Assembly (NCBI GenBank): GCA_018883985.1
Contig: JAHLFA010000059.1
Span: forward strand, 1-64,000
DNA length: 64,000 nucleotides
Direction: 5' to 3'
From: Candidatus Ruminococcus intestinipullorum
GTDB taxonomy: Bacteria > Bacillota > Clostridia > Lachnospirales > Lachnospiraceae
In this document: positions 23,259-45,328 of the stretch, piece by piece
Layout: the number at the start of each line of letters is the position of its first letter
Numbering within the stretch: position 1 is the stretch's first letter
The notes under the pieces: generated by a model
What the model was told of the DNA's origin: nothing
Database searches by the model: none
The model's input: only the letters and a program-made list of their open reading frames with translations
Made by a program: the position numbers and the translations under genes

Positions 23259-23302
23259 AATAAGCAGTGTTGATAAAAAATTTGGGGGGTTGGGGAAAAG
23301 TT

Positions 23303-24754: not shown

Positions 24755-24784
24755 GGGGAGAATAGGTGAAAAAGGAGAAACGGA

Positions 24785-26041: not shown

Positions 26042-26043
26042 AT

Positions 26044-26209
26044 ATGGGAGGATACAGAACGAATTGTATTATTCTAGAGGGCGATTCTGGTATATACCTG
26101 TATCCATTGACGAAAGTTACGAGCAAGAAGCATAATGAGTTGGGCTAGCTGCCAGAGATTAAGTTCGAGGACGGTATTAACAAGAGCACCCAGAGGCACC
26201 CTCGATAAT
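26044..26209 (+). pseudogene. rfbA: rfbA (dTDP-glucose pyrophosphorylase) remnant
   Basis: 'NCIILEGDSGIYLYPLTKVTSKK' resembles RfbA 'GIILAGGSGTRLYPLTKVTSKQ'; rapidly hits stops. Confidence 0.7.
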
Positions 26210-26300
26210 TGTGAGTGGTGGGAGTCTATTATCAGTAGTGAATGACAGGACTACAACGAGAATATGTACAGCAATCGCTAAGAAGACACAAGAGGAAAGA

Positions 26301-26794: not shown

Positions 26795-26840
26795 GATGAG
26801 ATAATAGAAAATGGGATAGATTAAAATTGAAAAAATGTAG

Positions 26841-26966
26841 GTGGCGTGGAACGACCCAGAAATCGGCATAGAATGGTCACAGTTGAAAGGCGAGTACAAG
26901 GGTACGTAAGTGCAGATTACGACACGCTGGAAGTGGATTGTGCTGAAGGATACTTTTAAATTTTAA
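26841..26966 (+). pseudogene. rfbC: rfbC (dTDP-4-dehydrorhamnose 3,5-epimerase) C-terminal remnant
   Basis: 'VAWNDPEIGIEWSQLKGEYKGT*' then, after a frameshift, 'KWIVLKDTFKF*', typical RfbC C-terminal strings. Confidence 0.75.
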
Positions 26967-26985
26967 GAACACAGGGGGAGGAAGA

Positions 26986-28227
26986 ATGCAGCCAGAAAAC
27001 AAAGTACAACACGTATTTCTAGTAGGAGCTAAGAGCTTGGGAGCATATGGAGGATATGAAACTTTTGTTTATAAACTCACAGAGTACCATCAGAATAAGA
27101 AAAATATTAAATATCATGTAGCATGTAAGGCTAACGGTGACGGCTGCATGGATGAAACAAAAGTGGATGGTGTGACAAGAATTAATGATTATGAATTTGA
27201 ATTCCATAATGCACATTGTTTTAAAATAGATATTCCTCAGATTGGGTCGGCACAGGCAATATATTATGATGTTGTGGCATTGAATTCATGCTGTAAATAT
27301 ATAAAAGAACATAATATCAAAAATCCAATTGTATACATTATGGCCTGTCGCATTGGTCCTTTTGCAGGCTATTTTTACAAAAAAATCCATAAATTGGGAG
27401 GTACTGTATATCTGAATCCAGATGGCCACGAGTGGATGAGAGAAAAGTGGCCTGCACTAATTCGGAAGTACTGGAAGATTTCAGAGCAGATGATGGTTAA
27501 ATATTGTGACCTTGTTATCTGTGATTCTGTGAACATCGAAAAATATATTCATGAATGTTATGGCGGTAAAGGTATAAAGGGAAAAAATCCTAATACGACA
27601 TTTATTGCTTATGGTTCAGATTTGACCCTCAGCAAGCTGGCTGATGACGATGAAAAGCTGTTAAATTGGTATAAAGAAAAAGGACTGACGAAGAAAGGGT
27701 ACTACCTTGTCGTTGGTCGCTTTGTACCAGAGAACTCTTTTGAGGTTATGATTCGGGAGTTTATGGAGAGTAATAGCAAAAGAGATTTTGCTATTATTAC
27801 TAATGTAAATGATAAGTTCTTGAATGAGCTTGAAGAAAGACTTCATTTCAAGAGTGATGAGAGAATTAAATTTACTGGTACGGTTTATAATCAGGAGTTA
27901 CTCAAAAAAATCCGAGAAAATGCCTACGCATATTTCCATGGTCATACGGTGGGAGGGACTAATCCTTCGCTGATTGAAGCTCTTGGTAGTACAGATTTGA
28001 ATCTACTGGTTGATGTCAGTTTTAACAGGGAAGTGGCGGAGGACTGTGCGCTTTATTGGAGCAGTAAGCCGAAGAGTCTTGCAAAATTAATTGATAAAAC
28101 GGATCAAATGAGTGCTGACGAAATTGCAGAGATGGGCAGAAGAGCTAAGAAGCGTGTGGAAGAAGAGTACACATGGGATAAGATTTGTGGACAGTATGAA
28201 GATGTGTTTGCAGATAGGGGAAATTAA
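26986..28227 (+). CDS. Glycosyltransferase, DUF1972/Cps2T (rhamnosyltransferase-like) family
   Basis: 'VFLVGAKSLGAYGGYETFVYKLTEYH', 'IVYIMACRIGPF', 'HGHTVGGTNPSLIEALGSTDLNLLVDVSFNREVAED'. Confidence 0.85.
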   Translation: MQPENKVQHVFLVGAKSLGAYGGYETFVYKLTEYHQNKKNIKYHVACKANGDGCMDETKVDGVTRINDYEFEFHNAHCFKIDIPQIGSAQAIYYDVVALNSCCKYIKEHNIKNPIVYIMACRIGPFAGYFYKKIHKLGGTVYLNPDGHEWMREKWPALIRKYWKISEQMMVKYCDLVICDSVNIEKYIHECYGGKGIKGKNPNTTFIAYGSDLTLSKLADDDEKLLNWYKEKGLTKKGYYLVVGRFVPENSFEVMIREFMESNSKRDFAIITNVNDKFLNELEERLHFKSDERIKFTGTVYNQELLKKIRENAYAYFHGHTVGGTNPSLIEALGSTDLNLLVDVSFNREVAEDCALYWSSKPKSLAKLIDKTDQMSADEIAEMGRRAKKRVEEEYTWDKICGQYEDVFADRGN

Positions 28228-28229
28228 CT

Positions 28230-29420
28230 ATGAAAATATTGGCAATACATAATTTCCATAGAAAAGGTTCAGCTAGTGGTGATGATCAAGTGTTTAAGAG
28301 TGAAACAGAACTGCTGGAGAGTCATGGAAATCAAGTAATTAAATATACAGTTTCTAACGATGAGTTTGATAACGCTGGGGTAATAGGAAAGCTATCAGCG
28401 ACGTTGGGAATGCTATGGAGTACAAAAAATTATAAAGCTGTTCAGCAGCTAATTGAATCAGAAAAACCAGATATTGTACATATTCATACTTTCTTTCCGT
28501 TGCTCTCGCCGTCCATTCTCTATGCTGCCAAGCGAAGCGGAGTCAAAGTGGTGGCAACATTACATGATACCCGTTTTGTTTGTCCGTGTTCAACATCTTT
28601 ACGTAGAATGGAGTTGTGTAATGAATGCGGCGATGGAAAGTATTTTCGGATGTGCAAGTATGGCTGCTTTAAAAATTCTAGGTTACAGAGTTTTATTGTA
28701 GCTGGAATTTTTACTTATCATCGTATGAGAAAAAGTTTTTATGAGCAGATTGACTGCTATATTTGTTTGAATGAGAATCAGATTCACCTTTTGACTAATA
28801 ATGGATTTGATAAAAACAAGATTGCAAAGAAGTACAATTTTGTACCTGATGTAGAAGCAAATCTCAAAGCAGCTAGGATTGAAGGTTTACCAGAACATTA
28901 CGCGGTTTTCTTTGGTCGAATTGGTGAGGAAAAAGGTATAAGAATTTTGATGAAGATATGGGATGAGCTTTCGGATATTCCGCTAGTTGTCATGGGCAGT
29001 GGCCCGCTCGAAGATGAGTTTAAACAGTGGGCAGAGAAGCACGATAATGTTTACTTTTTAGGATATACACAGCATGATAAATGCCTCTCCATTGTAAAAG
29101 GGGGAGAGTTTGTAGTATTTCCATCTATTTGGTACGAGGGCTGCTCTATGGTTGAAATTGAGACGGAGAGTTTAGGAAGAGGATTGATAGCAACGGATCT
29201 TGGATTCTCAACAGAAGCGATTGAAAATGGAGTAAATGGATATAAAGTAAAACTCGGTGATGTTGAAGAGTTCCGTAAATGTATTACAGAACTATGGAAT
29301 AAATCGGAACTGATTTCTGAAATTGGAAAAAATGCTAGAAGAGATTATGAACGGAAATACAGACCAGAAGATAACTATGAGCAACTGATGGGGATTTATA
29401 AAAAGACAATGGAGCAATGA
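28230..29420 (+). CDS. Glycosyltransferase family 4
   Basis: 'HIHTFFPLLSPSILYAAKRSGVKVVATLHDTRFVCP', 'FGRIGEEKGIRILMKIW', 'VFPSIWYEGCSMVEIE'. Confidence 0.93.
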   Translation: MKILAIHNFHRKGSASGDDQVFKSETELLESHGNQVIKYTVSNDEFDNAGVIGKLSATLGMLWSTKNYKAVQQLIESEKPDIVHIHTFFPLLSPSILYAAKRSGVKVVATLHDTRFVCPCSTSLRRMELCNECGDGKYFRMCKYGCFKNSRLQSFIVAGIFTYHRMRKSFYEQIDCYICLNENQIHLLTNNGFDKNKIAKKYNFVPDVEANLKAARIEGLPEHYAVFFGRIGEEKGIRILMKIWDELSDIPLVVMGSGPLEDEFKQWAEKHDNVYFLGYTQHDKCLSIVKGGEFVVFPSIWYEGCSMVEIETESLGRGLIATDLGFSTEAIENGVNGYKVKLGDVEEFRKCITELWNKSELISEIGKNARRDYERKYRPEDNYEQLMGIYKKTMEQ

Positions 29421-30067
29421 TTATGGATTTGAGGATAAGTACAGCAGATAAACTTACTATTTTATATCGTACAGGAATTAAATTTTTTAGGGGCATGGTA
29501 CGCAGAATCTTCCTAAAAGAAGTACATGGAATGCTTTTGGTGGGGAAGGGTGTGCAGATTTCCCATGGTAAACATATCCGCTGTGGCAAAAATGTTAAGT
29601 TTGAAGACTATTCAGAAATTCATGGATTGTGTTCAGAGGGCTTGAATTTTGGTGATTATGTAACAATAGGCCGAGGGTGTATGATTAGACCGTCCAGTTA
29701 TTATGGTGGCGACTATGGAATTGGCCTAACGATAGGGGAGAGTAGTTCAATTGGCCCTTATGGATATGTGGGATGCTCTGGAAAAATCACTATTGGCAAG
29801 AATGTGATGTTTGGACCTAAATGCAGTCTGTTTGCAGAAAATCACGTGTTTTCTAATACAGAATTAAGTATTAAAAGCCAAGGGGTCAAGCAAAAAGGAA
29901 TTACCGTTGAAGATGACTGCTGGATTGGAAGTAATGTCACAATCCTTGACGGAGTAACAATTGGAAAAGGTTCTGTCATTGGAGCAGGAACACTAGTAAC
30001 TAAGGATATTCCAGCAGGGTCTGTAGTGGTAGATATGAGAAATAAAAAAATAAGAGATAGACGATAG
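29417..30067 (+). CDS. Left-handed beta-helix acyltransferase (hexapeptide repeat)
   Basis: Hexapeptide repeats; 'SLFAENHVFSNTE', 'GITVEDDCWIGSNVTILDGVTIGKGSVIGAGTLVTKDIP'. Confidence 0.92.
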   Translation: MIMDLRISTADKLTILYRTGIKFFRGMVRRIFLKEVHGMLLVGKGVQISHGKHIRCGKNVKFEDYSEIHGLCSEGLNFGDYVTIGRGCMIRPSSYYGGDYGIGLTIGESSSIGPYGYVGCSGKITIGKNVMFGPKCSLFAENHVFSNTELSIKSQGVKQKGITVEDDCWIGSNVTILDGVTIGKGSVIGAGTLVTKDIPAGSVVVDMRNKKIRDRR

Positions 30068-30103
30068 AGTACAACGATAAAGTGGCACTTCATTGGAGGA
30101 AAA

Positions 30104-31240
30104 ATGAGTAGTAACAAAGTAAAAAAAATTTTATATGTCCGGTGTGCACCGTATATATTAAATTTTGATAGCTATAATTTGCAAGAAGTCGGTTTAGGAA
30201 GTGCATTTTGCCGAAGGAATTATGATTTTGATCTTATTTACTATTCTAAAAAGGATAAAAATCAGGAAATCGACATTGGTAATCGTAAATTGACAATCCT
30301 TTGGAGAAAAGGGTTTAAACTGTTAAGAACAGGAATTTACCCGTTTTTGTTAAATATGGAATTTCTCAAACAGTATGACATAATAATCGTCTCAGAATAT
30401 GGACAGTTTATGAGTTATCTGATTGCTAAAAGACACTCAAATGTTTACTTGTACAACGGACCATATTATAATTTATTCAAAATTCCATTTGTCGAACTAA
30501 TATATGACAAACTTTATTGCAAAAAAATCAATAGCAAAATGAAAAAGATTTTCTGTAAAACCCAAATGGCAAAGGAGTTCATAGAAAAGAAAGGTCTAAC
30601 CAATACAATAGTAACGGGAGTGGGACTAGATGTTGCGAAGTTTGCTGCAGAAAAAAGCGTATTGCCAGAAACACAGTACTTAATGGATAAAATGAAGGGA
30701 AAAAGAAACCTACTCTATGTGGGAAGTATTATTCCAAGAAAAAATATTGAATTGATAGTAAAGGCATTTGTGGAATTAAAGAAAGATACTCAGAATTGTG
30801 ATTTGCAGCTAACCTTAATTGGAAAAGGAGATTTTACGTATACACAGAAATGCAAAGAGATAATTCCTGAAAATCTGAAAAAAGACGTGATTTGGTGTAC
30901 ATTTATAAAAAATGCTCAACTTAAGTATATTTACAAAAGTTCATATGCCTTTTTATTACCTTCAGTTCAAGAAATATTTGGAATGGTCTTGTTGGAAGCA
31001 ATGTATTTTGGCCTTCCGGTGATATCAAGCCATAGCGCAGGTGCAGGAACGGTAATTCAGAATAACAGAAATGGATTGATTGTTGAACAATTTAGTGTGA
31101 GTGAATGGAAAGAGGCGATACAAAAGTTACTTGAGGATGAAGAGTTTGCTCGTAACTTGGGAAATGAAGCCCAAAAAACTATTAAGAAAGATTTTATGTG
31201 GGATAATATAGCCGATAAGATGATGAAGTATATGGATTGA
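30104..31240 (+). CDS. Glycosyltransferase family 4
   Basis: 'LLYVGSIIPRKNIELIVKAF', 'LPSVQEIFGMVLLEAMYFGLPVISSHSAGAG'. Confidence 0.92.
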   Translation: MSSNKVKKILYVRCAPYILNFDSYNLQEVGLGSAFCRRNYDFDLIYYSKKDKNQEIDIGNRKLTILWRKGFKLLRTGIYPFLLNMEFLKQYDIIIVSEYGQFMSYLIAKRHSNVYLYNGPYYNLFKIPFVELIYDKLYCKKINSKMKKIFCKTQMAKEFIEKKGLTNTIVTGVGLDVAKFAAEKSVLPETQYLMDKMKGKRNLLYVGSIIPRKNIELIVKAFVELKKDTQNCDLQLTLIGKGDFTYTQKCKEIIPENLKKDVIWCTFIKNAQLKYIYKSSYAFLLPSVQEIFGMVLLEAMYFGLPVISSHSAGAGTVIQNNRNGLIVEQFSVSEWKEAIQKLLEDEEFARNLGNEAQKTIKKDFMWDNIADKMMKYMD

Positions 31241-31253
31241 ACAGAGGAAGAAG

Positions 31254-32162
31254 ATGATGCAGGAGCTAAAGTTTTCATTTTTGATTCTAAATTATAGAAA
31301 TATTGAAGAAACAATTAAGTGTGTTGAGTCCATTCAGAAAGCAGAATATAAAAATTCAACTATTGTAATTGTTGATAATGGTTCTGCTGATGGATCATAC
31401 GAAAGAATTTGTGAGTTATACAGTGGAGCAAAAGACATTCACATTATTAAATCAGAGATAAATTTGGGTTTTTCTGGAGGAAATAATCTGGGCTACGCAT
31501 TTGTTAGAGAAAAAATAAAGCCAGATTTTTTGATTGTGACAAACAACGATGTTTTTTTTCCACAGGTAGATATGCCTAAGCGAATTCAAGAAACCTATGA
31601 GAATACAGGATTTTATGTTTTGGGACCAGATATTTATGTTCGTAAAAGTCATGAACATCAGAGTCCAATAATGTTAACCTTGCCAACTAGGGAGGATGTC
31701 GAAAAGGAACTTCAAATGTATGAATTCTATTTAGAACATCCAGATAAATGGGTGACAAGAAGAAAAATACAAACGATAAAAAATCGCGTGTGCCAGTCCA
31801 ACGATTTTCTAAAATACATTTATAGTAAAATAAAAGGTAAAAAATCTATTGATTACTCTCAAAAATATGTGAATTGTTGTGTGCAGGGTGCATGTATTAT
31901 TGTTTCAAGAAAATTTATTGAAGCAGAAGAAAAAATGTTCACACCGGAGCCGTTTTTGTATTGTGAGGAATTGCTACTTTTCAAGAAATGCGTAGATAAA
32001 CATTATTTGACTGTATATGATCCTTCAATTCAAATATGGCACGAGGATAGCTCTACAATGAAGAAAATTAATTCTAATGCCTTGGAAAAGGCAAAATTCA
32101 CATTAAAACATCATGTGGCGGCGAGAAAGCTTGTATTGCAGGTATATCGGGGGAATAAATAA
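31254..32162 (+). CDS. Glycosyltransferase family 2
   Basis: 'FLILNYRNIEETIKCVESI', 'IVDNGSADGSYE', 'NLGFSGGNNLGY', 'IVTNNDVFF'. Confidence 0.92.
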   Translation: MMQELKFSFLILNYRNIEETIKCVESIQKAEYKNSTIVIVDNGSADGSYERICELYSGAKDIHIIKSEINLGFSGGNNLGYAFVREKIKPDFLIVTNNDVFFPQVDMPKRIQETYENTGFYVLGPDIYVRKSHEHQSPIMLTLPTREDVEKELQMYEFYLEHPDKWVTRRKIQTIKNRVCQSNDFLKYIYSKIKGKKSIDYSQKYVNCCVQGACIIVSRKFIEAEEKMFTPEPFLYCEELLLFKKCVDKHYLTVYDPSIQIWHEDSSTMKKINSNALEKAKFTLKHHVAARKLVLQVYRGNK

Positions 32163-32272
32163 TATATGGGAATTGAACAAAAAGAATTTGTCTATATGAC
32201 AAGGTATTCTTTATATTTGGCAACTATAAATTTATTTCACCGTCGCTTTATAAATTATTTAATGGAGGGTAT

Positions 32273-32930
32273 ATGTATAATTCTTATCGCTTTACTTATG
32301 ATTCTATGCCGATTAAGAAGTTGATATTTAGGGCTATAGTTATTTGTTTGGTTGTAATGTTTTCAATAAAGGCACTGCATTTTCCACAGCAATTTTTTCC
32401 TTTTCATCAAGTGTTATTTAAGGGAGTGCTTAAAACATACTTTATAATTCATGTTTTTGTAATAGCTATAAGCACGATGATGTATACATTTGGTTTTGCA
32501 AAGGATAAGATACGAATCTAAAGGAGTGTTAATAGGTCATTCCATGAGGAATGATTATCCCAATACGGTATTCAATTATAAGTGTTTCAGTAGTTAACAA
32601 ATCAATTTGCGATTTTTCTTTGTATTTCTCTGATGCTTATAAAAATCTATGGTACAGGTGGAACTATCGTTGTTGAACTTAACCACTTGATGATAAGTAG
32701 GTTAAGTAGTATGAGTTATTTTTGGAATACTTATGGGATAAGTTTATTTGGCACATAGATTGTTCGAATAGTGATTTTAAAAGCTTTAAATAGTGGAGAA
32801 CGAGCACATATTCTCGATAATTTTTATATGAACTTATTAGTGAGCTCTGGACTAGTGTTTATAGGTGTGTTTTTATATCTAGTATGTAAGATCTCAAAAA
32901 AATTAGTTGAAGTAGGACACGATCCTGATA
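32273..32930 (+). pseudogene. Fossil O-antigen/capsule polymerase (Wzy-like)
   Basis: N-part ORF 32273-32521 is hydrophobic and Wzy-like; C-part 'LMISRLSSMSYFWNTYGISLFGT*IVRIVILKALNSGERAHILDNFYMNLLVSSGLVFIGVFLYLVCKI' with an internal stop. Confidence 0.6.
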
Positions 32931-33175
32931 GGCGGCATGGCCGCTAAAATTAATAAATTACAAAAAATGCATCCCCAATTCCAAAAGTGTGTTCTATCTA
33001 TTTTGGACAGATTATCTTGTTAAGTAAGGGCCGGCGAAATACCGTATTTTTGGAGTGTTTTATCAATGGTTTTTGAAAAAAGAGGGGGACTTATAAAAGA
33101 GGTTTCTTGGAAGTCGTACAGAATGGGGCTTAAAGATTCCGAGAGTCTATTGTATTAAAATGGAGGAATGAGACA

Positions 33176-34024
33176 GTGATATCAGTTGTCATGGCAACCT
33201 ATAATGGAGAACAATATATTATAGAACAAATAGAGTCCATAGTGAATCAAACAGTTACTGTAGATGAAATCATTATATGCGATGATATGTCTAGTGATAA
33301 AACTGTTGAAATTATTAAAAAATATATTAATGAGAAATGCCTCTCTCAAATCATTAGATTGTATCCAAACAATCAAAACGTTGGATATATTAGAAATTTT
33401 TATAATGGAATAAGCAGAAGCCATGGAGAGTATATCTTCCTAGCAGATCAAGACGATGTATGGGAGGTAAATAAGGTTGAACGAATGATTGCTACAATGC
33501 ACACTTGTAATGCGGAGGTGATTTGTTCAAATTTTAGTTTGATTGATGCGAGTGGAAAAACATATTCCAGAAAGGCAAGAATTCCGGAGTTTGTTCAAAA
33601 TACATCAGAGGAAGTAAGCAAGATTAAATTTATACCATTATTATTTGGTAATGTTTCACAAGGCTGTACGTATTGTTTTACTGAAAAGGTTAGGGATGTG
33701 TATTTGAGTGCAAATTATGATGAGATAATTCATGATTATCAAATTATGCTCATCGGATCTGCTATGGATGGCGCATATTTTCTGAATGAAAAATTGATTC
33801 GATATAGGCTGCATGGAAATAATAATATTGGATTTTCAGAGAAAAAGACGCTCAAGCATATTGACTTTAGATTGAAAGTGAAAAAACCTAAAGTTGCAGG
33901 TTTTATTGATCGTATAAAAAATGAAATAGATGTTCCGCATTATATGATAGCTCAAGCAGTTTTATATCTAAAATTGCCAGTATGGAAAGCAGTGTTTAAC
34001 AGATTCTTTGGGCGAAAGGAGTAA
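33176..34024 (+). CDS. Glycosyltransferase family 2
   Basis: 'ISVVMATYNGEQYIIEQIESIVNQTVTVDEIIICDDMSSDKT', 'FLADQDDVWEVNKVERM'. Confidence 0.94.
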   Translation: MISVVMATYNGEQYIIEQIESIVNQTVTVDEIIICDDMSSDKTVEIIKKYINEKCLSQIIRLYPNNQNVGYIRNFYNGISRSHGEYIFLADQDDVWEVNKVERMIATMHTCNAEVICSNFSLIDASGKTYSRKARIPEFVQNTSEEVSKIKFIPLLFGNVSQGCTYCFTEKVRDVYLSANYDEIIHDYQIMLIGSAMDGAYFLNEKLIRYRLHGNNNIGFSEKKTLKHIDFRLKVKKPKVAGFIDRIKNEIDVPHYMIAQAVLYLKLPVWKAVFNRFFGRKE

Positions 34025-35303
34025 GTCAATGAGCATAACAAAATCTTTTCTGATTGGCCTTGTAGGGATGACATCATCGTGGGCTATAATCAGATTTGGA
34101 AACAATAGCTTGTTTAAGATACTCGTTATATGTATTCTGTTTGTAAATTTAGTTGGATTAAGTATTAAATTTAGAAAAATGAATCTTAATCCATGTTTTT
34201 ATTTGATGTATGGAAGTATGGTAATAACATTTCTATTCACAAATAGTATGACGATAGGGGCGGAATGGGTAAAACAGGAGAATATTCAGTTTTTTTGGAT
34301 GACAGTTTACGCAATATTCTATTTGATAGCCTCTGCATTTTTAGACAAACAAATTGAAATTTATTTTAAGGGCTTCATGTATGGAAGCTTGATACAAATG
34401 GCATGGGTAATCGTTCAGTATATGATATATACAGTGACTGGACTTGATATAAACATGCAACTATTTTCGAAATTATATGGTAGAAGCTATATTAAAGAAG
34501 GGGGATTTGGTGCTTCGGGTCTTGCGTGGCATCCAAGTAATTTAGCGGTACTGCTTGTTATATTATTTTGGGTGTTTGATAGCTGGTATTGGAAATTTAT
34601 TGTACTTGTGACGGCGATACTGAGTAATAACTCTACAGTTATAATTTGTGTGATAACATGCATCGTTGTAAACATTTTTGCAGATAAAAAGGATAAATTC
34701 AGGAGCATTAAAATTGGAAAGAGAACGATTGTAATAACGTTTATTGCTATCTTTGTAATGCTGATACTTTTTATTAAAACTGATTTGTTATTGATTGCTA
34801 GTAACAGAATCTTGTTTATCTATAATAGAATATTTGGTGGATATTATGATGGTGGAAGTACAAATGCGCATATTCGTTATTATACCACGATTCCAAATGT
34901 AATAGCTCGTTATCCATTAACAAAGGTTTTGTTTGGTTTTGGAGAGGGATGCTCAGGGTATGTTATGACAAGTTTATTTGGACAATATAGTAATATCGGT
35001 GCGTGGGCATTGGAATGTGATATTGTTAATATCTTGTGGAATAAAGGATTAGTAGGATTCTTTTTATTCTATGGATGGCTACTTTCTATTGTAAAAAGAG
35101 GGTGGGCAGTCAATCACAAATATGCGTATATAATGTTCGCTATAATAGTGGGAGGAATATTTTATAATATTCAGTACGACTGGGTTATCGTTTTGGAAGT
35201 GATTATTGATATTGCTATTTATAGAAAGATTGATTTGTTTGCTATGAACTATTTTTCTAAAAGAGATAATACGAGATTGTACAGATCTCGCATAAAGTGG
35301 TGA
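34008..35303 (+). CDS. O-antigen ligase/polymerase (Wzy-like) membrane protein
   Basis: ~10 predicted TM segments; large loop and position in an EPS locus. Confidence 0.75.
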   Translation: MGERSKSMSITKSFLIGLVGMTSSWAIIRFGNNSLFKILVICILFVNLVGLSIKFRKMNLNPCFYLMYGSMVITFLFTNSMTIGAEWVKQENIQFFWMTVYAIFYLIASAFLDKQIEIYFKGFMYGSLIQMAWVIVQYMIYTVTGLDINMQLFSKLYGRSYIKEGGFGASGLAWHPSNLAVLLVILFWVFDSWYWKFIVLVTAILSNNSTVIICVITCIVVNIFADKKDKFRSIKIGKRTIVITFIAIFVMLILFIKTDLLLIASNRILFIYNRIFGGYYDGGSTNAHIRYYTTIPNVIARYPLTKVLFGFGEGCSGYVMTSLFGQYSNIGAWALECDIVNILWNKGLVGFFLFYGWLLSIVKRGWAVNHKYAYIMFAIIVGGIFYNIQYDWVIVLEVIIDIAIYRKIDLFAMNYFSKRDNTRLYRSRIKW

Positions 35304-35324: not shown

Positions 35325-36491
35325 ATGAAGAAACATATATTGTGCATTAATGCAGATTTACAGTCTACGAATCTGGGTTGTGCAGCGTTGGGATTATCAT
35401 TTGTACAGGTACTTCGTGAAATTGCTAAAAAGGAGAATTTTCATATTGAGATGAGTATTCTTGGATATGGAAAGGGCAAAGAGTATGAGGATGAGTATAT
35501 CTCTATACATGAAACAGTATATTTTGATTTAAAAAATATAAAAGTATGGAAATTTCTAAAAGATAATATTGCAAAGGCGGACTTAATTGTTGATTTTACA
35601 GGTGGAGACAGTTTTACAGATATTTATGGAATGAGAAGATTCTATAGAGAATCTATTGTGAAAAAACTGGCTATACAAAGTAAGGCATATTTTGTACTAG
35701 GCCCTCAGACAATAGGTCCATTTAACAATAGTGTTACTAAGAAAATTGCTGGAAATTTGTTGCTAAAATCTGACTATGTATTTACAAGAGATGAAGTTTC
35801 GAATAATTATGCTAGAAATCTAGGCTGTGACAGTATTTTAACGACGGATGTGGCTTTTATACTGCAACCTACAACAAGTAACTACGAATATTTGAATGAG
35901 TCTACAAAGATAAAAATTGGCATTAATGTGTCTGGACTGATGATGAATGGAGGATACAACTGTAATAATCAATTTGGATTAAAAATGGATTATAAGAAGT
36001 TCATCGACACACTAGTAAGTGAGTGTCTGAAAGCAAATTATGAGGTTCATCTGGTTCCACATGTGCTTCCACTACATTCACCTGCAGAAGACGATTATAA
36101 AGCTTTAGAGCAGATTCATAATGTTTATCCTCAAACTGTACTTGCTCCTAGATTTTCCTCCCCTAAGGAAGCGAAAGAGTACATTGGTTATATGAATTTC
36201 TTCGTTGGATCTAGAATGCATGCAACAATTGGATCCTTTTCCATGGGAGTTCCAACTATACCGGTGGCATACAGCCCTAAATTCTCTAGATTGTTTTCCA
36301 GTGTAGGATATAATAGGGTAATAGACGGAAAAGTTACTAACGAAGTAGATGCCGTTTCTACTATTCTCGATTCTATTGCTCAAAGAGAAGATATAAAAAA
36401 GGAAATACAAGTGTCTTTGAATGTTATTAAAAGCAGAAACAAGGATTTTGTGGAAAAGATTCGAGATATATTGAATAATTCAGCGAGATGA
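35325..36491 (+). CDS. Polysaccharide pyruvyl transferase family protein (CsaB/WcaK-like)
   Basis: 'DFTGGDSFTDIYG', 'LGPQTIGPFNN', 'TRDEVSNNYARNLG', 'FFVGSRMHATIGSFSMGVPTIPVAYSPKF'. Confidence 0.9.
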   Translation: MKKHILCINADLQSTNLGCAALGLSFVQVLREIAKKENFHIEMSILGYGKGKEYEDEYISIHETVYFDLKNIKVWKFLKDNIAKADLIVDFTGGDSFTDIYGMRRFYRESIVKKLAIQSKAYFVLGPQTIGPFNNSVTKKIAGNLLLKSDYVFTRDEVSNNYARNLGCDSILTTDVAFILQPTTSNYEYLNESTKIKIGINVSGLMMNGGYNCNNQFGLKMDYKKFIDTLVSECLKANYEVHLVPHVLPLHSPAEDDYKALEQIHNVYPQTVLAPRFSSPKEAKEYIGYMNFFVGSRMHATIGSFSMGVPTIPVAYSPKFSRLFSSVGYNRVIDGKVTNEVDAVSTILDSIAQREDIKKEIQVSLNVIKSRNKDFVEKIRDILNNSAR

Positions 36492-36513
36492 ATAAGAAAA
36501 AGGAGGAAAGCAT

Positions 36514-38208
36514 ATGATTGACAACAAGAAAAACATACAGCTTCTTGTAGAATGCTTAAAGGAGCATTCTATTCGAAATATTGTGATAAGTCCTGGTGGA
36601 ACTAATATTGCTTTTGTTAAGGAAGTGCAGGATGATCCTTTTTTCCATTGTTTTTCTGTAGTTGATGAGAGGAGTGCTATGTATTTTGCAATCGGATTGT
36701 ATCTCCAAACAGGAGAAGTCATTGTAACGTCATGTACAAGTGCGCAGGCAACTAGAAATTATGTTCCAGGCTTAACAGAGGCATATTATAAAAAAGTTCC
36801 AATCTTAGCGATTACGATGAGTAAACATCCTCGCTTTACTTATCAAGAGTATATGCAAGCACCAGATCAGAGCTCACTCCCGAATGATTGTATTAAAAGT
36901 TCGTATAGCCTGCCAATTATATCCGAAAATGATGATGTGATACACAGTATTCGATTGATTAATGAAGCTATTTTGGAAACTACACATCGTGGTTGTGGGC
37001 CAGTACAATTGTGCATTCCGTGGCTTGACTTTCCATTAAGTGCCATTACACCACGAAATCGTTGCATAAAAAGGTACACTATGGAAGAACCATGGGATGT
37101 TTTGTTGAAAAATAAGAGAGTATTAATTTGCATTGGGGAGCATATGCGGTTCGGAGAAAGAGAAAGGAGTGCCCTCGAAAAGTTTTGCGAATGTTATAAT
37201 TGTGCAGTTTATACAAACCATTTGTCTAACTATAGTGGAAAATATTCTTTCGAGGGGAACCTTTTATTTACAACGATTAGTGTTGAAAGATTTAAAACGG
37301 AAATTCGTCCAGACGTTTTAATTACTATTGGTGGACAGACAGGAGATTATCCATTCTATAGACTTTTTTCAAAGCTCGAACTTGGAGAAATTGAGCATTG
37401 GAGGGTTGACTACAATGGTCATGTGACGGATACATATGATAAGTTGACAAAAATATTTGAATGTACAGAAGCAACTTTCTTTGAAAAGCTGACTATAGCT
37501 GAATTAGATACGCATGAATATTATGAGAAGATTAACAGTTGTATTATGTATAACCTGGAAGTAGAGATTCCGTTTTCTAACGCATATGCAGCTAGGAAAC
37601 TGACAAAAATTATTCCTCAAAATAGTATAGTTCAGTTTTCGATATTGAATAGCTTACGGGTTTGGAACTTGTTCCATTTTGAAAACCAAGTTGAATGTTA
37701 TTCTAATGTTGGTGCATTTGGAATTGATGGGGGAATGTCGACACTAATTGGACAGAGCATGGTCACAAGTGAATTGTGCTTTATGATAATTGGTGATCTT
37801 GCTTTTTTTTACGATATGAATTCTTTAGGAATTAGAGGACTAAAGAGCAATATTCGAGTTCTTCTTGTAAATAACAATGGAGGGGTAGAATTTAAATTAG
37901 GCAAAGTTGACTCTAAAGATGTGGACAGATATATTGCAGCCGGTAATCACTTTAAGAATGCGAAAGGTTGGGCTGAAACGTGTGGATTTGAGTATTTAAG
38001 AGCACAAACAGAAAAAGAATTTGATAGTGCTATAGAAAAGTTTGTTAGCCTAAATGATAAACCGATTGTTCTAGAATTGTTTGTTTCTGATACTGATGAT
38101 GCAACAGCCTATAATAAGCTAGTAACAACTAATACAGAAGGAGCAGCATTCAATCAGTTCAAAGACAATATGAAAGTTTCTGTAAAGAAGTTGTTTGGAA
38201 GAATTTGA
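36514..38208 (+). CDS. MenD-like thiamine-pyrophosphate-dependent enzyme of the EPS locus
   Basis: 'IVISPGGTNIAFVKEVQDDPFFHCFSVVDERSAMYFAIGL' parallels the MenD N-terminus; TPP motif 'IGDLAFFYDMNSLGIRGLKSNIRVLLVNNNGGVEFKL'. Confidence 0.85.
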   Translation: MIDNKKNIQLLVECLKEHSIRNIVISPGGTNIAFVKEVQDDPFFHCFSVVDERSAMYFAIGLYLQTGEVIVTSCTSAQATRNYVPGLTEAYYKKVPILAITMSKHPRFTYQEYMQAPDQSSLPNDCIKSSYSLPIISENDDVIHSIRLINEAILETTHRGCGPVQLCIPWLDFPLSAITPRNRCIKRYTMEEPWDVLLKNKRVLICIGEHMRFGERERSALEKFCECYNCAVYTNHLSNYSGKYSFEGNLLFTTISVERFKTEIRPDVLITIGGQTGDYPFYRLFSKLELGEIEHWRVDYNGHVTDTYDKLTKIFECTEATFFEKLTIAELDTHEYYEKINSCIMYNLEVEIPFSNAYAARKLTKIIPQNSIVQFSILNSLRVWNLFHFENQVECYSNVGAFGIDGGMSTLIGQSMVTSELCFMIIGDLAFFYDMNSLGIRGLKSNIRVLLVNNNGGVEFKLGKVDSKDVDRYIAAGNHFKNAKGWAETCGFEYLRAQTEKEFDSAIEKFVSLNDKPIVLELFVSDTDDATAYNKLVTTNTEGAAFNQFKDNMKVSVKKLFGRI

Positions 38209-38241
38209 TAAAGTTTCGTGCGAAAGGAGTACGATTGTTTA

Positions 38242-39711
38242 ATGGTATCTACTATAAAAAAGTTTATTGCAAAATATAGAGGACTGCCAGTTCCCGTTAG
38301 GGCATCATTTTGGTTTTTGATATCGGCTTTCTTGCAAAGAGGTATTTCGGTAATTTCAACTCCAATTTTTACACGGTTACTATCAACAGCTGAGTACGGA
38401 CAGTATAATGTTTTTAACTCATGGCTTGGACTTGTTATGGTATTTGTAACGCTTCAGCTTTATTCTGGAGTTTTTACACAGGGAATGGTTAAATTTGAAG
38501 ATAGAAAATATCAATATGCCTCCTCTCTACAGGGATTATGCTTGACATTGGTAGTGTTCTGGACAATAGTATATTTTATTTTTAGAAATAAATGGAATGC
38601 ACTATTTGGTTTAACCACTGTTCAAATGCTTGCTATGATACTGATGATTTGGACATCTTCAGTATTTAGTTTTTGGTCGGTTGAGCAACGCGTTGATTTT
38701 CATTACCATAAGCTCGTTCTGGTAAGTATTATTACATCTATTCTAAAACCTGTTGTTGGTGTAGTATTTGTTGTACTGGCCAAAGATAAGGTGACAGCTA
38801 GAATTTTGGGTCTTGCCTTGGTTGAATTAGCAGCATATACATGGATGTTCTTCTCACAAATGAGAAGAGGGCGTATGTTTTATGATAAGCATTTCTGGAA
38901 GCATGCACTTATGTTTAATCTTCCACTGATTCCGCATTATTTATCAATGACTGTTCTCAACAGCTCAGATAGAATTATGATTAAGAATATGGTGGGGGTA
39001 GAAGAGGCTGGAATATATAGTTTGGCATATTCTATTTCGCAAATTATGGCATTGTTTAATACTGCACTTTTACAAACAATTGAACCTTGGCTTTATAAGA
39101 AAATTAAATCAAAGGATATAAAAGATATAGAAAAGGTGGCTTACCCTGCATTTTTATTGATTGCTGGTGTTAATATTCTGCTGATTGTATTTGCACCAGA
39201 AGTGGTTTCTATTTTTGCACCAGCCACCTATCATAATGCTATATGGATTGTGCCACCGGTTGCAATGAGTGTGTACTTTATGTTTTCATATACGTTTTTT
39301 GCTGTTTTTGAATTTTATTATGAAAAAACAAAATATGTTGCTATTGCAACAGTTTCTGGGGCTATGCTAAATATTGTATTGAATTATATCTTTATCGGAA
39401 AGTTTGGTTATTACGCAGCTGGATATACAACGTTAATTTGTTATATTGTATTTTCACTTTATCATTACTATTTTATGAGAAAAATCTGTAAAAAAGAATT
39501 TTTGGGTGAAATGCCATATAAAACAAGTATTCTTTTGGCGATAACGGTAGCTTTTATGATTGGTGCTTTTTCGATTCTGTTATTATACAAAAACTGTGTG
39601 GGACGTTATTTACTTATTGTAGTTCTGGTGTTGTTAATGATTGTATTTAGAGTCAAAATAATAAGGCAGATAACGGGATTGCTTAGCCTAAAAAAACAGC
39701 GTGATTATTAG
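38242..39711 (+). CDS. Polysaccharide flippase (Wzx, MATE-like superfamily)
   Basis: Multi-TM; 'FWFLISAFLQRGISVISTPIFTRLLSTAEYGQYNVFNSW', 'NSSDRIMIKNMVGVEEAGIYSLAYSISQIM'. Confidence 0.93.
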   Translation: MVSTIKKFIAKYRGLPVPVRASFWFLISAFLQRGISVISTPIFTRLLSTAEYGQYNVFNSWLGLVMVFVTLQLYSGVFTQGMVKFEDRKYQYASSLQGLCLTLVVFWTIVYFIFRNKWNALFGLTTVQMLAMILMIWTSSVFSFWSVEQRVDFHYHKLVLVSIITSILKPVVGVVFVVLAKDKVTARILGLALVELAAYTWMFFSQMRRGRMFYDKHFWKHALMFNLPLIPHYLSMTVLNSSDRIMIKNMVGVEEAGIYSLAYSISQIMALFNTALLQTIEPWLYKKIKSKDIKDIEKVAYPAFLLIAGVNILLIVFAPEVVSIFAPATYHNAIWIVPPVAMSVYFMFSYTFFAVFEFYYEKTKYVAIATVSGAMLNIVLNYIFIGKFGYYAAGYTTLICYIVFSLYHYYFMRKICKKEFLGEMPYKTSILLAITVAFMIGAFSILLLYKNCVGRYLLIVVLVLLMIVFRVKIIRQITGLLSLKKQRDY

Positions 39712-39719
39712 GAGGAATT

Positions 39720-40180
39720 TCAGTGAGTTTGAAATATAAAGGGAACATTTTTATGAGTCAAGCTATAGCAAAGTATAGGGTTAGTAATATTGGGATATAA
39801 TTATAGGCGATACGATTTATATTTCGGGATGCAGTGGAGTTATATCGATGTATTATTATAAACTCAGAAATAGGACAAGATATTCATGTGGATTGCTAGA
39901 CTAGTTATGTCTTGACACAAAAAGAACAGTACGAAAAGGCTGTAAGCAATATGGTGGAACACAAGTGACATTGAGCCTACCTGATGGGTCTGACAATATA
40001 TGGTAACTACGAAATAGAGGAAAAGGTGAACTTTACGGTTATATGCTGAAGGTAGGCGAGAACCACGTTAGTAGTTTGGCAGTCATCCCATCACAGCTAC
40101 TTGGATATATGTATCTGTTGCTAAGGCTCTGGATGTTGATAAGTTGAGAAATCTTGCAAAGAGTATAACAGTAGAATAAT
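39720..40180 (+). pseudogene. Decayed coding remnant(s) between wzx and wzz; family unresolved
   Basis: Protein-like fragments in shifting frames, e.g. 'VRKGCKQYGGTQVTLSLPDGSDNIW*' and 'AKALDVDKLRNLAKSITVE*'; no intact + strand ORF. Confidence 0.4.
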
Positions 40181-40594: not shown

Positions 40595-41296
40595 ATGATG
40601 GAAGAACAGAGGATGAATGATGAGATAGAAATAGATCTTGTCGATTTATTTTATGCACTGTTGAATAAGATTAAAGTAATCATCATGTGTATGATTATTG
40701 GTGTTCTCACAGCAGGCGGAGTTACAAATATTTTTATAACCCCACAGTACGAAGCATCTTCAATGATATACATTTTGGGGAATACGGCAAATATTTCAGG
40801 CATGAACCTACAGTTATCACAACAATTAACGGTAGACTTTGAGATTTTGGCAAAGAGCCGTCCAGTAATCAATAAAGCAATTGATAAAATGGGGGTAGAC
40901 TATACATACGAGGAAGTTGTAGATATGGTTGAGGTAGAAAACCCTACAGATTCCAGTATCTTAAGAATGACAGCAACAAGCCCAGATCCACAAGAGGCAG
41001 CAGATTTGGCAAACGCAATGGCAGATGCAACAGCATCTAGAGTTGCAGAAGTTATGGCAACGGACAAGCCAAGTACAGTAGAACAAGCAGTTGTACCAGA
41101 AGATCCAGCAAGCCCTAGCCTTCTTAAAAATATGGCAATTGGTGGTCTTTTAGGTACGTTTTTGGCAGTGGCAGTTGTGGTAGTATTGTATATTATGGAT
41201 GATACCATTACAACAGAGGAAGATGTTAAGAAATATCTGAACCTGAACACAATGGCTGCGATTCCAAAGGAAAAAAGGAAAAAGAAGTCAGCTTAG
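40595..41296 (+). CDS. Wzz/CpsC-type chain-length determinant (BY-kinase transmembrane activator)
   Basis: 'IEIDLVDLFYALLNKIKVIIMCMIIGVL', central domain, 'PEDPASPSLLKNMAIGGLLGTFLAVAVVVV'. Confidence 0.92.
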   Translation: MMEEQRMNDEIEIDLVDLFYALLNKIKVIIMCMIIGVLTAGGVTNIFITPQYEASSMIYILGNTANISGMNLQLSQQLTVDFEILAKSRPVINKAIDKMGVDYTYEEVVDMVEVENPTDSSILRMTATSPDPQEAADLANAMADATASRVAEVMATDKPSTVEQAVVPEDPASPSLLKNMAIGGLLGTFLAVAVVVVLYIMDDTITTEEDVKKYLNLNTMAAIPKEKRKKKSA

Positions 41297-41317
41297 TAGG
41301 CTGATTTCTTTTTCTTG
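41284..41317 (+). terminator. Terminator-like hairpin overlapping the wzz stop codon
   Basis: AAGTCAGC-ttagta-GGCTGATTT followed by CTTTTT. Confidence 0.6.
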
Positions 41318-41345
41318 TATATAAAGGTCAAAAAGGAGAGGTATC

Positions 41346-42116
41346 ATGAAAAGAGCAAAAGGAATTTTGATAGCAGTACTGAGTTTAATTATTGTAGGCT
41401 GTGCTAGCTATATTGCCTATTACTACTTATCACAAAAAGATAATGAAAAGGTATATGAAGAAGTTCAGAAAACAGCAATTAAAGAAGTAGAAGAACCAAA
41501 AGATACACAGGAAGAACCTGAGGAAGAAAAAGTACAAATTCCAATTGATTTTGCTACTTTACAGGCTCAAAATCCAGATATTTACGCATGGATTCAAATA
41601 GAAGGAACAAACATAAATTATCCAGTGGCACAAAGTGCAACAGACAATCAGTTTTATTTGGATCATACAATAGATGGAACAGCAGGTCTTCCAGGTTCCA
41701 TTTATACAGAAAATTTAAATTCCAAAGAATTTACAGATTATAATACTGTAATGTATGGACACGATATGAGAGATGGAAGTATGTTCCAAAACTTACATAA
41801 CTACGCAGATCCAACTTATATGCAGGAACATCCATATGTTGTGATTTATACACCAACAAAAAAATTAACCTATGAGATATTTGCAGCAGTCACTTATGAT
41901 GATAGACATGTTCTATACAGCTATAACTTCCTATCTCCAGATTCCAGACAGCAATTTTTGGATTCTATCTATAATGGAAGAAGCTTAGGAAATATTATTC
42001 GAGATGATGTGCAGGTAACAACAAATAACCGTTTACTTACATTAAGTACTTGCGTAACAGGACAAGATGACAAAAGATTTCTTGTAGAGGCGGTGCTGAT
42101 TAGTGAAGAAAAATAA
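41346..42116 (+). CDS. srtB: Class B sortase
   Basis: 'NPDIYAWIQIEGTNINYPVAQ', 'NTVMYGHDMRDGSMFQNLHNYADPTYMQEHPYVVIYTP', catalytic 'LLTLSTC', C-terminal 'KRFLVEAVLI'. Confidence 0.93.
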   Translation: MKRAKGILIAVLSLIIVGCASYIAYYYLSQKDNEKVYEEVQKTAIKEVEEPKDTQEEPEEEKVQIPIDFATLQAQNPDIYAWIQIEGTNINYPVAQSATDNQFYLDHTIDGTAGLPGSIYTENLNSKEFTDYNTVMYGHDMRDGSMFQNLHNYADPTYMQEHPYVVIYTPTKKLTYEIFAAVTYDDRHVLYSYNFLSPDSRQQFLDSIYNGRSLGNIIRDDVQVTTNNRLLTLSTCVTGQDDKRFLVEAVLISEEK

Positions 42117-43104
42117 GAAAAAGAAAACAGGAAATAAGGGCATAGTTGGAATAGTTATTTTAACTATCATTGCGGTAGTTATTGCTGTGGCAGCATTCTG
42201 CATTAGTGTCCAAAGTAAGAACAAAAAAACAACAGAACAAAAGGTTGTACAAGATGATTTAAATAGTGGATATATAACCTATCAAGGTGAAAAATACGAA
42301 TACAATGCCAACATAAGAACTATGTTATTTCTAGGAATTGATAAAGATGAAGTAGCAACTTTAAGAGATGTAGCAGGATATAGTGGGCAATCAGATTGTA
42401 TTATAGTAGCCGTGTTTGATCAGGAAAAGGAAACAACAACTCTATTAGAGATATCTAGAGATTCTATGGTGGATGTAGATTTATACAGTGACAATGGGAT
42501 TCTTTTAGATGTACAAAAAGCACAAATTGCTACCCAGTACGCTTATGGACGAGGGGAAAAGCAAAGCTGTCAGTTAACACGAGATGCTGTTTCAGAATTA
42601 TTATATGACGTGCGTATTGATGACTATCTTTCATTAAATATGGCAGGCATTCCACCTATTATTGACAGCATAGGAGGAGTGGAAATCACAGTACCAAAAG
42701 ATTATACAGAGTTAGATCCTACATTTGTCCAAGGAGCCACAATAACGTTAAATGGAGAACAGGCAAAAACTTATGTAAGAAAAAGAGATATCACAGTATT
42801 TGGAAGTAATAATGACCGTATGGAGCGTCAAACACAATTTATTCAAGCGTTATTTAAGAAAGTACAGACATCTGGAGATAATGGAAGTAGTATGCTGCGT
42901 CAGTTTTGGTCAGCAGGAGAAGCATATATGACAACAGATATGGATTTTAATACGCTTAATAAACTTACTTCTTATACGATGGAGCCTGAGATTTTAAAAG
43001 TACCAGGTGAAGTCAGAGAAGGGGAAAAGCATGATGAATTTTATGTAGATGAGCAAGGATTACAGCAGATGATTATTGATACGTTCTATCAAAAGGTAGA
43101 GTAG
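42103..43104 (+). CDS. LytR-CpsA-Psr (LCP) family cell-wall polysaccharide ligase
   Basis: 'TMLFLGIDKDE', 'DCIIVAVFDQEKETTTLLEISRDSMV', 'IDSIGGVEITVPKDYT', 'LNGEQAKTYVRKRD', 'DNDRMERQTQFI'-like. Confidence 0.92.
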   Translation: MKKNKKKKTGNKGIVGIVILTIIAVVIAVAAFCISVQSKNKKTTEQKVVQDDLNSGYITYQGEKYEYNANIRTMLFLGIDKDEVATLRDVAGYSGQSDCIIVAVFDQEKETTTLLEISRDSMVDVDLYSDNGILLDVQKAQIATQYAYGRGEKQSCQLTRDAVSELLYDVRIDDYLSLNMAGIPPIIDSIGGVEITVPKDYTELDPTFVQGATITLNGEQAKTYVRKRDITVFGSNNDRMERQTQFIQALFKKVQTSGDNGSSMLRQFWSAGEAYMTTDMDFNTLNKLTSYTMEPEILKVPGEVREGEKHDEFYVDEQGLQQMIIDTFYQKVE

Positions 43105-43200
43105 ATTTAAGCGAGAATTATTAAAAAACACTTTACAACTATTTATTTTAATGATATGCTTGCTTATATAAAAAAATATAACCATTAGGGGGCTAGAAAA

Positions 43201-43797
43201 ATGAAATTAAGAAAATTAGCGGGGGTTGTAACAGCAGTATTTATGACAGCAGCGATGAGCTTAACAGCATTTGCAGCACCTTCACCATCAGTAGATGGAA
43301 CAGTTTCAGCTGAAGAAGGAGAAGTACAGGTTACAATGACAGATGTTCCTGCAGAATATGCAGAAGCAGTTGCTCAGTTAGATTCTAGAGATACTCTTAG
43401 AAATCTATTAGGAGCACAGTACAAAGACACAATGCAAGTTGTTGCAGTAAGAGAAGTAAGTGTACCAGAAGGAACACCAATGCCTGTAACAATCGAGTTC
43501 CAGGTAACAGGAGTTAGACCTACAACAGACGTAGCTATCCTTCACTATGATACAGTACAGGCTGCTTGGGAAAACATCCCAGCAACAGCAGGAGAAGGAA
43601 CAATCACAGCTACATTCCAGTCTTTGTCTCCAGTAGCATTCGTAGTTGATACAGCTACATCTTCTGCAGCTACAACAACAGAAGCATCAACAACAAAATC
43701 ACCAAAAACAGGTGAAAGCTCAATGGTAGTTGTATTCGGAGCAGTTGCAGCAATCGCAGCATGCGGTGTTTACGGATTATCTAGAAAAAGAGCATAG
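43201..43797 (+). CDS. Secreted surface protein with SPKTG-type cell-wall sorting signal
   Basis: Signal peptide; Thr/Ser-rich stalk; 'SPKTGESSMVVVFGAVAAIAACGVYGLSRKRA' (motif, hydrophobic span, basic tail). Confidence 0.88.
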   Translation: MKLRKLAGVVTAVFMTAAMSLTAFAAPSPSVDGTVSAEEGEVQVTMTDVPAEYAEAVAQLDSRDTLRNLLGAQYKDTMQVVAVREVSVPEGTPMPVTIEFQVTGVRPTTDVAILHYDTVQAAWENIPATAGEGTITATFQSLSPVAFVVDTATSSAATTTEASTTKSPKTGESSMVVVFGAVAAIAACGVYGLSRKRA

Positions 43798-43820
43798 TTT
43801 TGAATAACTACTAAGAATAG

Positions 43821-43862
43821 AATCCTCTTCTGCAGCGAATATACAGAAGAGGATTTCTTTTT
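43821..43862 (+). terminator. Rho-independent terminator
   Basis: AATCCTCTTCTG...CAGAAGAGGATT perfect 12-bp stem then TCTTTTT. Confidence 0.85.
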
Positions 43863-43884
43863 GCCTTGAGGAAAGGGGAGGAAG

Positions 43885-44670
43885 ATGCAGGGGCTTATAG
43901 ATATACATTGTCATATTGTACCAGGAGTGGACGATGGGGCAAAAACTCTGTATGATGCAGGGAAGATATTACAGATGGAATATTGGAATGGAGTTTCAGC
44001 AGTGATTGTGACTCCTCATTATCGTGTGGGAATGTTTGAAACGCCGCAAGCAGTAATCCAAAAACAATTTTTAAGATTAAAAGAGATGGTTTCACATTCT
44101 AGGTCAGGAATGAAAGTATATTTGGGGTGTGAATATCATTCACATTCTACGATGTTAAGAGATTTACAAACAAAGAAGCGTCCTACTATGGCAGGTTCTA
44201 GATATGTGTTGACAGAATTTTCATCTAGACATAGTTATTCTATGATACGTAATCAAGTATATGAATTGGTAGCAGCCAGATATAAGCCTATTATAGCTCA
44301 TGTAGAAAGATACCCATGTTTATTGGAAGATGCAGAGTTGATTGGGGAGTTGATAGATGCAGGAGCAAAGATTCAGGTTACATCTGGAAGTGTGATTGGT
44401 GAGCATGGTAGAAAAAGAAAACAATTTTGCCAGTATTTATTAAAAAATGACTGGGTAGATTATATAGCCTCAGATGCACACGACATCACACATAGAAAGC
44501 CAAATTTGAAACAGTGTGCGGAGTATGTGTCAAAGAAGTATGGGGAAGAATATATGAAAGATATTTTTATCCGAAATCCCCAAAAAATTATAAGAGAGGG
44601 ACAAGCAATTAAGAGGAGAAGATTGGAAAATGAAAAAGGTAAACATATTAAAGAAAAAACTTCCTTATGA
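43885..44670 (+). CDS. PHP-type protein-tyrosine phosphatase (CpsB/CapC/YwqE)
   Basis: 'DIHCHIVPGVDDGAKTL', 'VTPHYRVGMFE', 'PIIAHVERYPCL', 'DYIASDAHDITHRKP'. Confidence 0.95.
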   Translation: MQGLIDIHCHIVPGVDDGAKTLYDAGKILQMEYWNGVSAVIVTPHYRVGMFETPQAVIQKQFLRLKEMVSHSRSGMKVYLGCEYHSHSTMLRDLQTKKRPTMAGSRYVLTEFSSRHSYSMIRNQVYELVAARYKPIIAHVERYPCLLEDAELIGELIDAGAKIQVTSGSVIGEHGRKRKQFCQYLLKNDWVDYIASDAHDITHRKPNLKQCAEYVSKKYGEEYMKDIFIRNPQKIIREGQAIKRRRLENEKGKHIKEKTSL

Positions 44671-45328
44671 AATAGAAGAAGAGATTAATACACTTCGTAC
44701 GAATATTCAGTTTACAGGTGCAGATAAGAAAGTAATATTAGTAACCAGTTGTATGGGAAGTGAAGGAAAGTCTACTACAACATATCGACTTGCTGCCTCT
44801 CTTTCTGAGTTAGGAAAACGTGTACTATTGATTGATACAGATATGAGAAAGTCTGTTATGGTTGGAAGACTGGCAATGGGAACCGTAGAAAAAGGACTTT
44901 CACATTATTTATCAGGACAGTGTAATTTAGTAGATGTTGTATATTCTACAAATGTACCAAATTTGCATATTATTTTTGCTGGTCCAGTACCTCCAAACCC
45001 AACAGCTCTTTTGGAAACAAAGGTATTCAAAGATACAATCGAATCTTGTAGAGAGTTGTATGATTATATTCTAATTGATACAGCACCTTTGGGAATGGTT
45101 ATTGATGCAGCGATTGTGGCAAAGCATTGTGACGGGGCAATCTTACTTATGGAATCTGGTGCAATTAAGTACAAGATTGCACAAGATGTAAAGTTTAAGC
45201 TAGAATCAGCACAGTGTCCTGTACTAGGAGTTGTGTTAAACAAAGTAGAAGTCAATGGACGTGGTGGATATTACAAGCAGTATTATAAAAAATACGAGAA
45301 GTACGGAACAAAGGAAAGTACAAAATAA
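44630..45328 (+). CDS. CpsD/CapB-family bacterial tyrosine kinase
   Basis: 'INTLRTNIQFTGADKKVILVTSCMGSEGKSTTTYRLA', 'VLLIDTDMRKSVM', 'DYILIDTAPLGMVIDA'; Tyr-cluster tail 'GYYKQYYKKYEKYG'. Confidence 0.95.
   Translation: MKKVNILKKKLPYEIEEEINTLRTNIQFTGADKKVILVTSCMGSEGKSTTTYRLAASLSELGKRVLLIDTDMRKSVMVGRLAMGTVEKGLSHYLSGQCNLVDVVYSTNVPNLHIIFAGPVPPNPTALLETKVFKDTIESCRELYDYILIDTAPLGMVIDAAIVAKHCDGAILLMESGAIKYKIAQDVKFKLESAQCPVLGVVLNKVEVNGRGGYYKQYYKKYEKYGTKESTK

Follow-up and report, generated by a model that had tools for sequence, protein, structure and literature searches.

A MenD-derived ThDP enzyme with a carbonyl reductase partner in EPS loci of gut bacteria, and its possible part in making a C-branched sugar

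The substrate site of MenD has been dissected by mutagenesis in Bacillus subtilis, with Arg32, Arg106 and Lys299 assigned to isochorismate, Arg428 mainly to 2-oxoglutarate and Arg409 to both substrates, while Ile489, Phe490 and Leu493 form a hydrophobic wall beside the thiazolium (PMC2914249). Outside menaquinone synthesis, the ThDP-dependent enzyme YerE makes acetyl-branched sugars (PMC12247030), and Pau7, an aldo/keto reductase of the paulomycin pathway, reduces an acetyl branch made by a ThDP enzyme (PMC4753412). In the open-access literature we found no account of MenD-like enzymes encoded in capsule or EPS loci.

The stretch of DNA analysed here (hereafter the window) comprises 64,000 nucleotides of contig JAHLFA010000059.1 from Candidatus Ruminococcus intestinipullorum (assembly GCA_018883985.1), and holds an EPS locus of the Gram-positive type with the following genes:

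23267..34021, + strand: upstream EPS genes, including an initial sugar transferase, a member of the UDP-glucose/GDP-mannose dehydrogenase family, a Cps2T-type rhamnosyltransferase, more glycosyltransferases and a hexapeptide acetyltransferase
34008..35303, + strand: membrane protein matching neither Pfam nor NCBIfam models, a probable Wzy polymerase for this locus
35325..36491, + strand: polysaccharide pyruvyl transferase family protein, 388 aa (PF04230, 3.5e-34)
36514..38208, + strand: MenD-derived ThDP enzyme, 564 aa, intact, with catalytic Glu52, G427-D428...N453-N454 and the clade-marking Glu459
38218..39711, + strand: Wzx-type flippase, 497 aa (PF01943)
40595..45328, + strand: downstream EPS assembly genes, encoding sortase, LytR-CpsA-Psr, CpsB/CapC and tyrosine-kinase-like ATPase proteins

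The pyruvyl transferase and ThDP enzyme ORFs lie exactly where a preliminary description of this DNA had placed them, and the segment 40595-41296 may encode a chain-length regulator. Between the UDP-sugar dehydrogenase and Cps2T-type rhamnosyltransferase genes, positions 26060-26800 carry decayed fragments of RmlA, RmlB and RmlD (dTDP-rhamnose). A multi-frame gene remnant lies between two glycosyltransferase genes at 32160-32990; it has membrane-protein-like stretches and is polymerase-like by eye. The membrane ORF at 34008-35303, by contrast, is intact.

The likeness of the ThDP enzyme to MenD, proposed in the preliminary description, is borne out by TIGR00173 (menD) as the best NCBIfam model (7.5e-48, 163.8 bits) and by the solved structures nearest in sequence, all of which are MenD. 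Acetolactate synthase is the second-best model (6e-13), and models of this type score far below that of MenD. Matches to TPP_enzyme_N (PF02776, 8.5e-19) and TPP_enzyme_C (PF02775, 1.5e-4) each exceed the gathering score, the DERSA and GDL...NNNGG motifs are both present as previously claimed, and the catalytic Glu52 and the cofactor residues Gly427-Asp428 and Asn453-Asn454 are all in place. The predicted fold matches MenD with a whole-chain TM-score of only 0.53, so that the structure model (mean pLDDT 80.9, poor over residues 457-480, a span that includes Glu459) backs a MenD fold and not the detail of the active site. A chance ORF is excluded, given its full length and its 56-58% identity to proteins in the same locus type of other organisms. 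Judged from its sequence, the enzyme is a member of the ThDP decarboxylase superfamily and, by descent, of the MenD branch.

Given that MenD provides both the top family model and the top structures, the enzyme might be a divergent yet genuine MenD that stands in an EPS locus by accident. Yet its score falls below the curated TIGR00173 cut-off of 244.2 bits, most of the substrate-site residues are altered (see below), and its relatives lie in EPS loci rather than men operons. The preliminary description had named a case that would count against its own view, namely that this was the only MenD of a menaquinone-producing genome. In the genome assembly, which is 83.54% complete (all genome-wide absences given here are to be read against that figure), we found neither MenB nor isochorismate synthase, nor a second MenD, the sole MenD-like match being an acetolactate-synthase-like protein; nor does the neighbourhood contain menaquinone genes, as had been said. 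Since cut-off, substrate-site residues and pathway genes were all tested and none assigns the enzyme to MenD, we do not class it as such. It is almost certainly not MenD in function, the accident of placement being an extremely improbable account, and the earlier view of it as part of the EPS locus rather than a menaquinone enzyme is supported.

We mapped by alignment the eight residues that belong to the substrate site of B. subtilis MenD and are strictly or mostly conserved (PMC2914249), and six of them differ in the window enzyme: Arg32 is replaced by Thr30, Arg106 by Lys104, Lys299 by Tyr279, Arg428 by Val399, Ile489 by Glu459 and Leu493 by Gly463. Phe490 is kept as Phe460, and Arg409 is kept as Arg382 in the multiple alignment, whereas a single-sequence alignment gives Trp384 instead; the match of Lys299 to Tyr279 depends on the same multiple alignment. 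Thr30 lies in the motif that had been read, correctly, as SPGGTNIA for the SPGSRSTP of MenD. Across the alignment, Arg428 is absent from all 22 EPS-type proteins and Glu occupies the Ile489 position in 21 of the 22, while Arg428 and Ile489 are both invariant in ten proteins annotated MenD. Arg32 and Arg106 are retained together only in L046 and L047 (L numbers designate the loci compared here), the earliest EPS-type branches, which suggests that Arg428 on the donor side and Ile489, the neighbour of the reacting carbon, changed before, or at least more consistently than, the isochorismate side. On these alignments, the EPS-type clade is marked by Glu459 and the loss of Arg428. The SR-to-TN change was considered as a diagnostic mark and rejected, as those two early branches retain the Arg. 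As far as aligned residues can tell, the pocket for 2-oxoglutarate and isochorismate has been rebuilt. The preliminary description had proposed a different acceptor, and the changes on the isochorismate side (Arg32, Arg106, Lys299, Leu493) agree with this, but the 2-oxoglutarate side is altered too, at Arg428, so that the donor is as likely as the acceptor to have changed. An Azospirillum protein annotated menD (L013, 5896-7767), which reads CPGAQM where MenD has SPGSRS and has no menaquinone genes around it, is possibly another divergent MenD relative.

The close relatives (56-58%) come from MAGs labelled Eubacterium, Coriobacteriaceae and Thomasclavelia, and the remoter ones (33-39%) from Ruminococcus albus, several genomes of the same phylum and scaffolds of human faecal origin that were deposited as 'phage' but are unverified. 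They are rare, occurring in 3/399, 4/291 and 8/189 genomes in three draws, the first two counts including the window's own genome. As a contrast group we used Bacteroidales proteins at 31-33%, among them genuine MenD that are encoded in men operons and bear CPGSRN and NRG. A mixture-model tree places 21 EPS-type proteins on one side of a branch (87/98), beside Bacteroidales MenD, and the members of this clade are found mostly in EPS loci of Bacillota and Coriobacteriaceae, not in men operons. We regard this MenD-derived lineage in EPS loci as real, conserved and rare, and no description of it was found in the open-access literature. A search for relatives in viral contigs confirmed none. The scaffolds of L018, L019, L020 and L021 (GenBank MT835729, MT835934, MT835535, MT837954), deposited as unverified human-faecal bacteriophage, hold bacterial polysaccharide loci. 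In R. albus (L009, 325-1599), a cytidylyltransferase fused to a GFO/IDH/MocA-type oxidoreductase domain stands beside LicD genes in the EPS locus of the ThDP enzyme.

A carbonyl reductase lies near, or is fused to, the ThDP enzyme in 19 of 21 relatives, the two loci without one (L040 and L043) both being cut by contig ends. Three reductase families take this place. Ten loci have a classical SDR directly next to the ThDP gene (upstream in six, downstream in four), and in L009, L016 and L041 the gene next to it encodes an extended SDR instead. Both kinds follow the flippase in L044, L045 has an extended SDR plus an aldo/keto reductase, and L021 has an aldo/keto reductase two genes upstream of the ThDP gene. 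Three further proteins carry the ThDP domain with a C-terminal aldo/keto reductase fusion and a 4Fe-4S tail:

L037, 3123-6308, - strand: ThDP-aldo/keto reductase fusion
L038, 6691-9804, - strand: ThDP-aldo/keto reductase fusion
L039, 8779-11910, + strand: ThDP-aldo/keto reductase fusion

The fused forms lie outside a typical EPS locus, near TPR/GT41-type glycosyltransferases, and may have a role in protein glycosylation. A placing test for the adjacency of SDR and ThDP genes gives about 1e-8, but it treats the loci as independent although they are related. Of 20 control loci around random flippases, none contains an SDR, extended SDR or aldo/keto reductase of the kinds tested; the set is weak, in that only 11 of the 20 contain a flippase detected by the locus models. 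Lower-scoring flippases had been chosen as controls because the top matches of two family searches resembled SpoVB and CsaB, as judged by length and score. The varying gene order argues that the link between ThDP enzyme and reductase has been kept through rearrangement, and from the way in which three separate reductase families have joined one ThDP enzyme we infer, on strong evidence, a product with a reducible carbonyl. The two enzymes very probably form a module.

In the window, no intact reductase stands beside the ThDP gene. Two fragments of an SDR were detected there:

39723..39788, + strand: SDR fossil fragment 1, VSLKYKGNIFMSQAIAKYRVSN, matching residues 74-95 of the L044 SDR
39794..39853, + strand: SDR fossil fragment 2, DIIIGDTIYISGCSGVISMY, matching residues 192-211 of the L044 SDR, collinear with fragment 1

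Within the stretch searched, their E values are 9e-5 (39723-39788) and 4e-5 (39794-39853), and together they reach 55.8 bits, a score that none of 1000 dinucleotide shuffles equals (best 40.4). They stand directly after the flippase, the place of the SDR in L044, and the window flippase is itself 52-59% identical to the flippases beside the ThDP gene in L015, L016, L044 and L045. Two collinear fragments in this position indicate that the window's SDR has decayed, which explains why the reductase was overlooked in the preliminary description, and the final reduction step would consequently be missing here unless another reductase supplies it. The module could on this account be a remnant in this strain, its ThDP and pyruvyl transferase ORFs still open and its pathway dead through decay of the SDR and other genes of the locus. 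The fossil agrees with such a history, as do the rml and polymerase-like remnants at other places in the locus; the full-length ThDP, pyruvyl transferase and flippase ORFs speak against it, a reductase may act in trans, and the genome has an intact RmlB on another contig. We consider a dead pathway improbable.

The pyruvyl transferase family protein matches PF04230 with 119.4 bits (gathering score 25.3) over profile positions 1-280 of 280, and the same subtype lies upstream in L006, L007 and L008 at 37-40% identity. Its pairing with the ThDP enzyme, on which the preliminary description had built, stands in so far as every one of the 15 EPS loci with sufficient flank has a PF04230-like gene close to the ThDP gene. 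Positions and subtypes differ among these loci, though, and such genes also adjoin flippases in loci without a ThDP enzyme (L130, L139) and belong to a family present in 51 of 61 genomes of the phylum, for which reasons we regard this link as weaker than that with the reductase. Among the control flippase loci, a small set, 2/20 contain a pyruvyl transferase. The reductase, then, is the tighter partner of the ThDP enzyme.

Our best explanation, to which we give a probability of about one half, is that the MenD-derived ThDP enzyme and its reductase make a C-branched sugar for the EPS. Following recruitment of a MenD ancestor into EPS loci of gut bacteria, the enzyme would decarboxylate a 2-oxo acid in a ThDP-dependent reaction, as its family, kept catalytic Glu and kept cofactor motif suggest. 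A keto-sugar nucleotide, for instance a 4-keto-6-deoxy intermediate, is the most likely new acceptor of the activated acyl unit, and the transfer would leave a carbonyl that the dedicated SDR, extended SDR or aldo/keto reductase would turn into an alcohol. In agreement with this reading, the genome encodes RmlB, a dTDP-glucose 4,6-dehydratase, which yields a 4-keto sugar nucleotide, and YerE and Pau7 offer precedents. The resulting C-branched (hydroxyalkyl) sugar would enter the repeat unit for export by the neighbouring flippase; a separate decoration of this unit would probably be the work of the pyruvyl transferase. The keto-sugar acceptor put forward in the preliminary description is a reasonable idea, though a small-molecule product fits too, and the C-branched sugar as such is a tentative identification, a little short of an even chance. 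We found no single sugar-nucleotide pathway common to all ThDP loci.

If only small molecules are involved, a 2-oxo acid would be turned into an aldehyde or acyloin and then, by the partner reductase, into an alcohol or diol. This would be linked to the glycan as a substituent other than a sugar, and the pyruvyl-transferase-family protein may be what attaches it. The partner reductases do resemble general carbonyl reductases (acetoin reductase, FabG and DkgA types), and the presence of a pyruvyl-transferase-family gene in every sufficiently flanked EPS locus would be accommodated, but no conserved activating enzyme for such a substituent stands beside the ThDP-reductase pair, and no pyruvyl transferase was seen in the loci of the fused forms. 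We hold this route to be unlikely, at slightly better than one chance in four. More doubtful still is a specific form in which the ThDP enzyme and reductase build a reduced acyl unit that the pyruvyl-transferase-family protein installs on the repeat unit in place of PEP pyruvate; were it so, the glycan would bear a substituent not yet described, from a MenD-derived lineage.

Some polysaccharide loci hold phosphonopyruvate decarboxylases, which are likewise ThDP-dependent, and an aminotransferase and a cytidylyltransferase lie upstream in R. albus, so that an enzyme of this kind, supplying a phosphonate decoration of the glycan, has also to be weighed. No match to PEP mutase (TIGR02320) was found in the genome, none is annotated in the R. 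albus stretch, and no phosphonopyruvate decarboxylase model is among the 25 best NCBIfam matches, which leaves this explanation with very little credit.

A sister lineage whose active site is recoded and whose reductase can be exchanged or even fused would mean that MenD was remodelled to serve glycan chemistry and that ThDP enzymes had a further, independent origin in polysaccharide loci. It would also offer new C-C ligases for biocatalysis, and the fused forms represent a two-step enzyme open to direct test. A practical warning is that 'menD-like' genes in capsule loci are not to be taken as menaquinone genes.

Among known systems, the CsaB and WcaK pyruvyl transferases share the PF04230 domain, over its full length, with the window protein, but this protein scores well below the equivalog cut-offs for the two, with 76.1 bits where 213.1 are required and 29.7 where 727.1 are required, respectively. 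With MenD (SEPHCHC synthase), and especially that of Bacteroidales, the ThDP enzyme has in common full-length homology, the ThDP motif, the catalytic Glu, the predicted fold and its position in the tree; it differs in its sub-threshold score, in the altered Arg32, Arg106, Lys299, Arg428, Ile489 and Leu493, in the lack of men genes found in locus or genome, and in the reductase that neighbours its relatives. YerE, ErwE and MygE belong to the same ThDP decarboxylase superfamily and share the polysaccharide locus and an expected later ketoreduction (PMC12247030, PMC4753412), and by analogy the module would act like YerE if our best explanation holds; unlike those enzymes, compared in the case of YerE by description only, the present one descends from MenD. 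Pau7, finally, is a reductase that acts after a ThDP-made branch, and an aldo/keto reductase is likewise adjacent or fused in some relatives here, but Pau7 serves antibiotic biosynthesis, whereas most of these relatives use a classical or extended SDR, in EPS.
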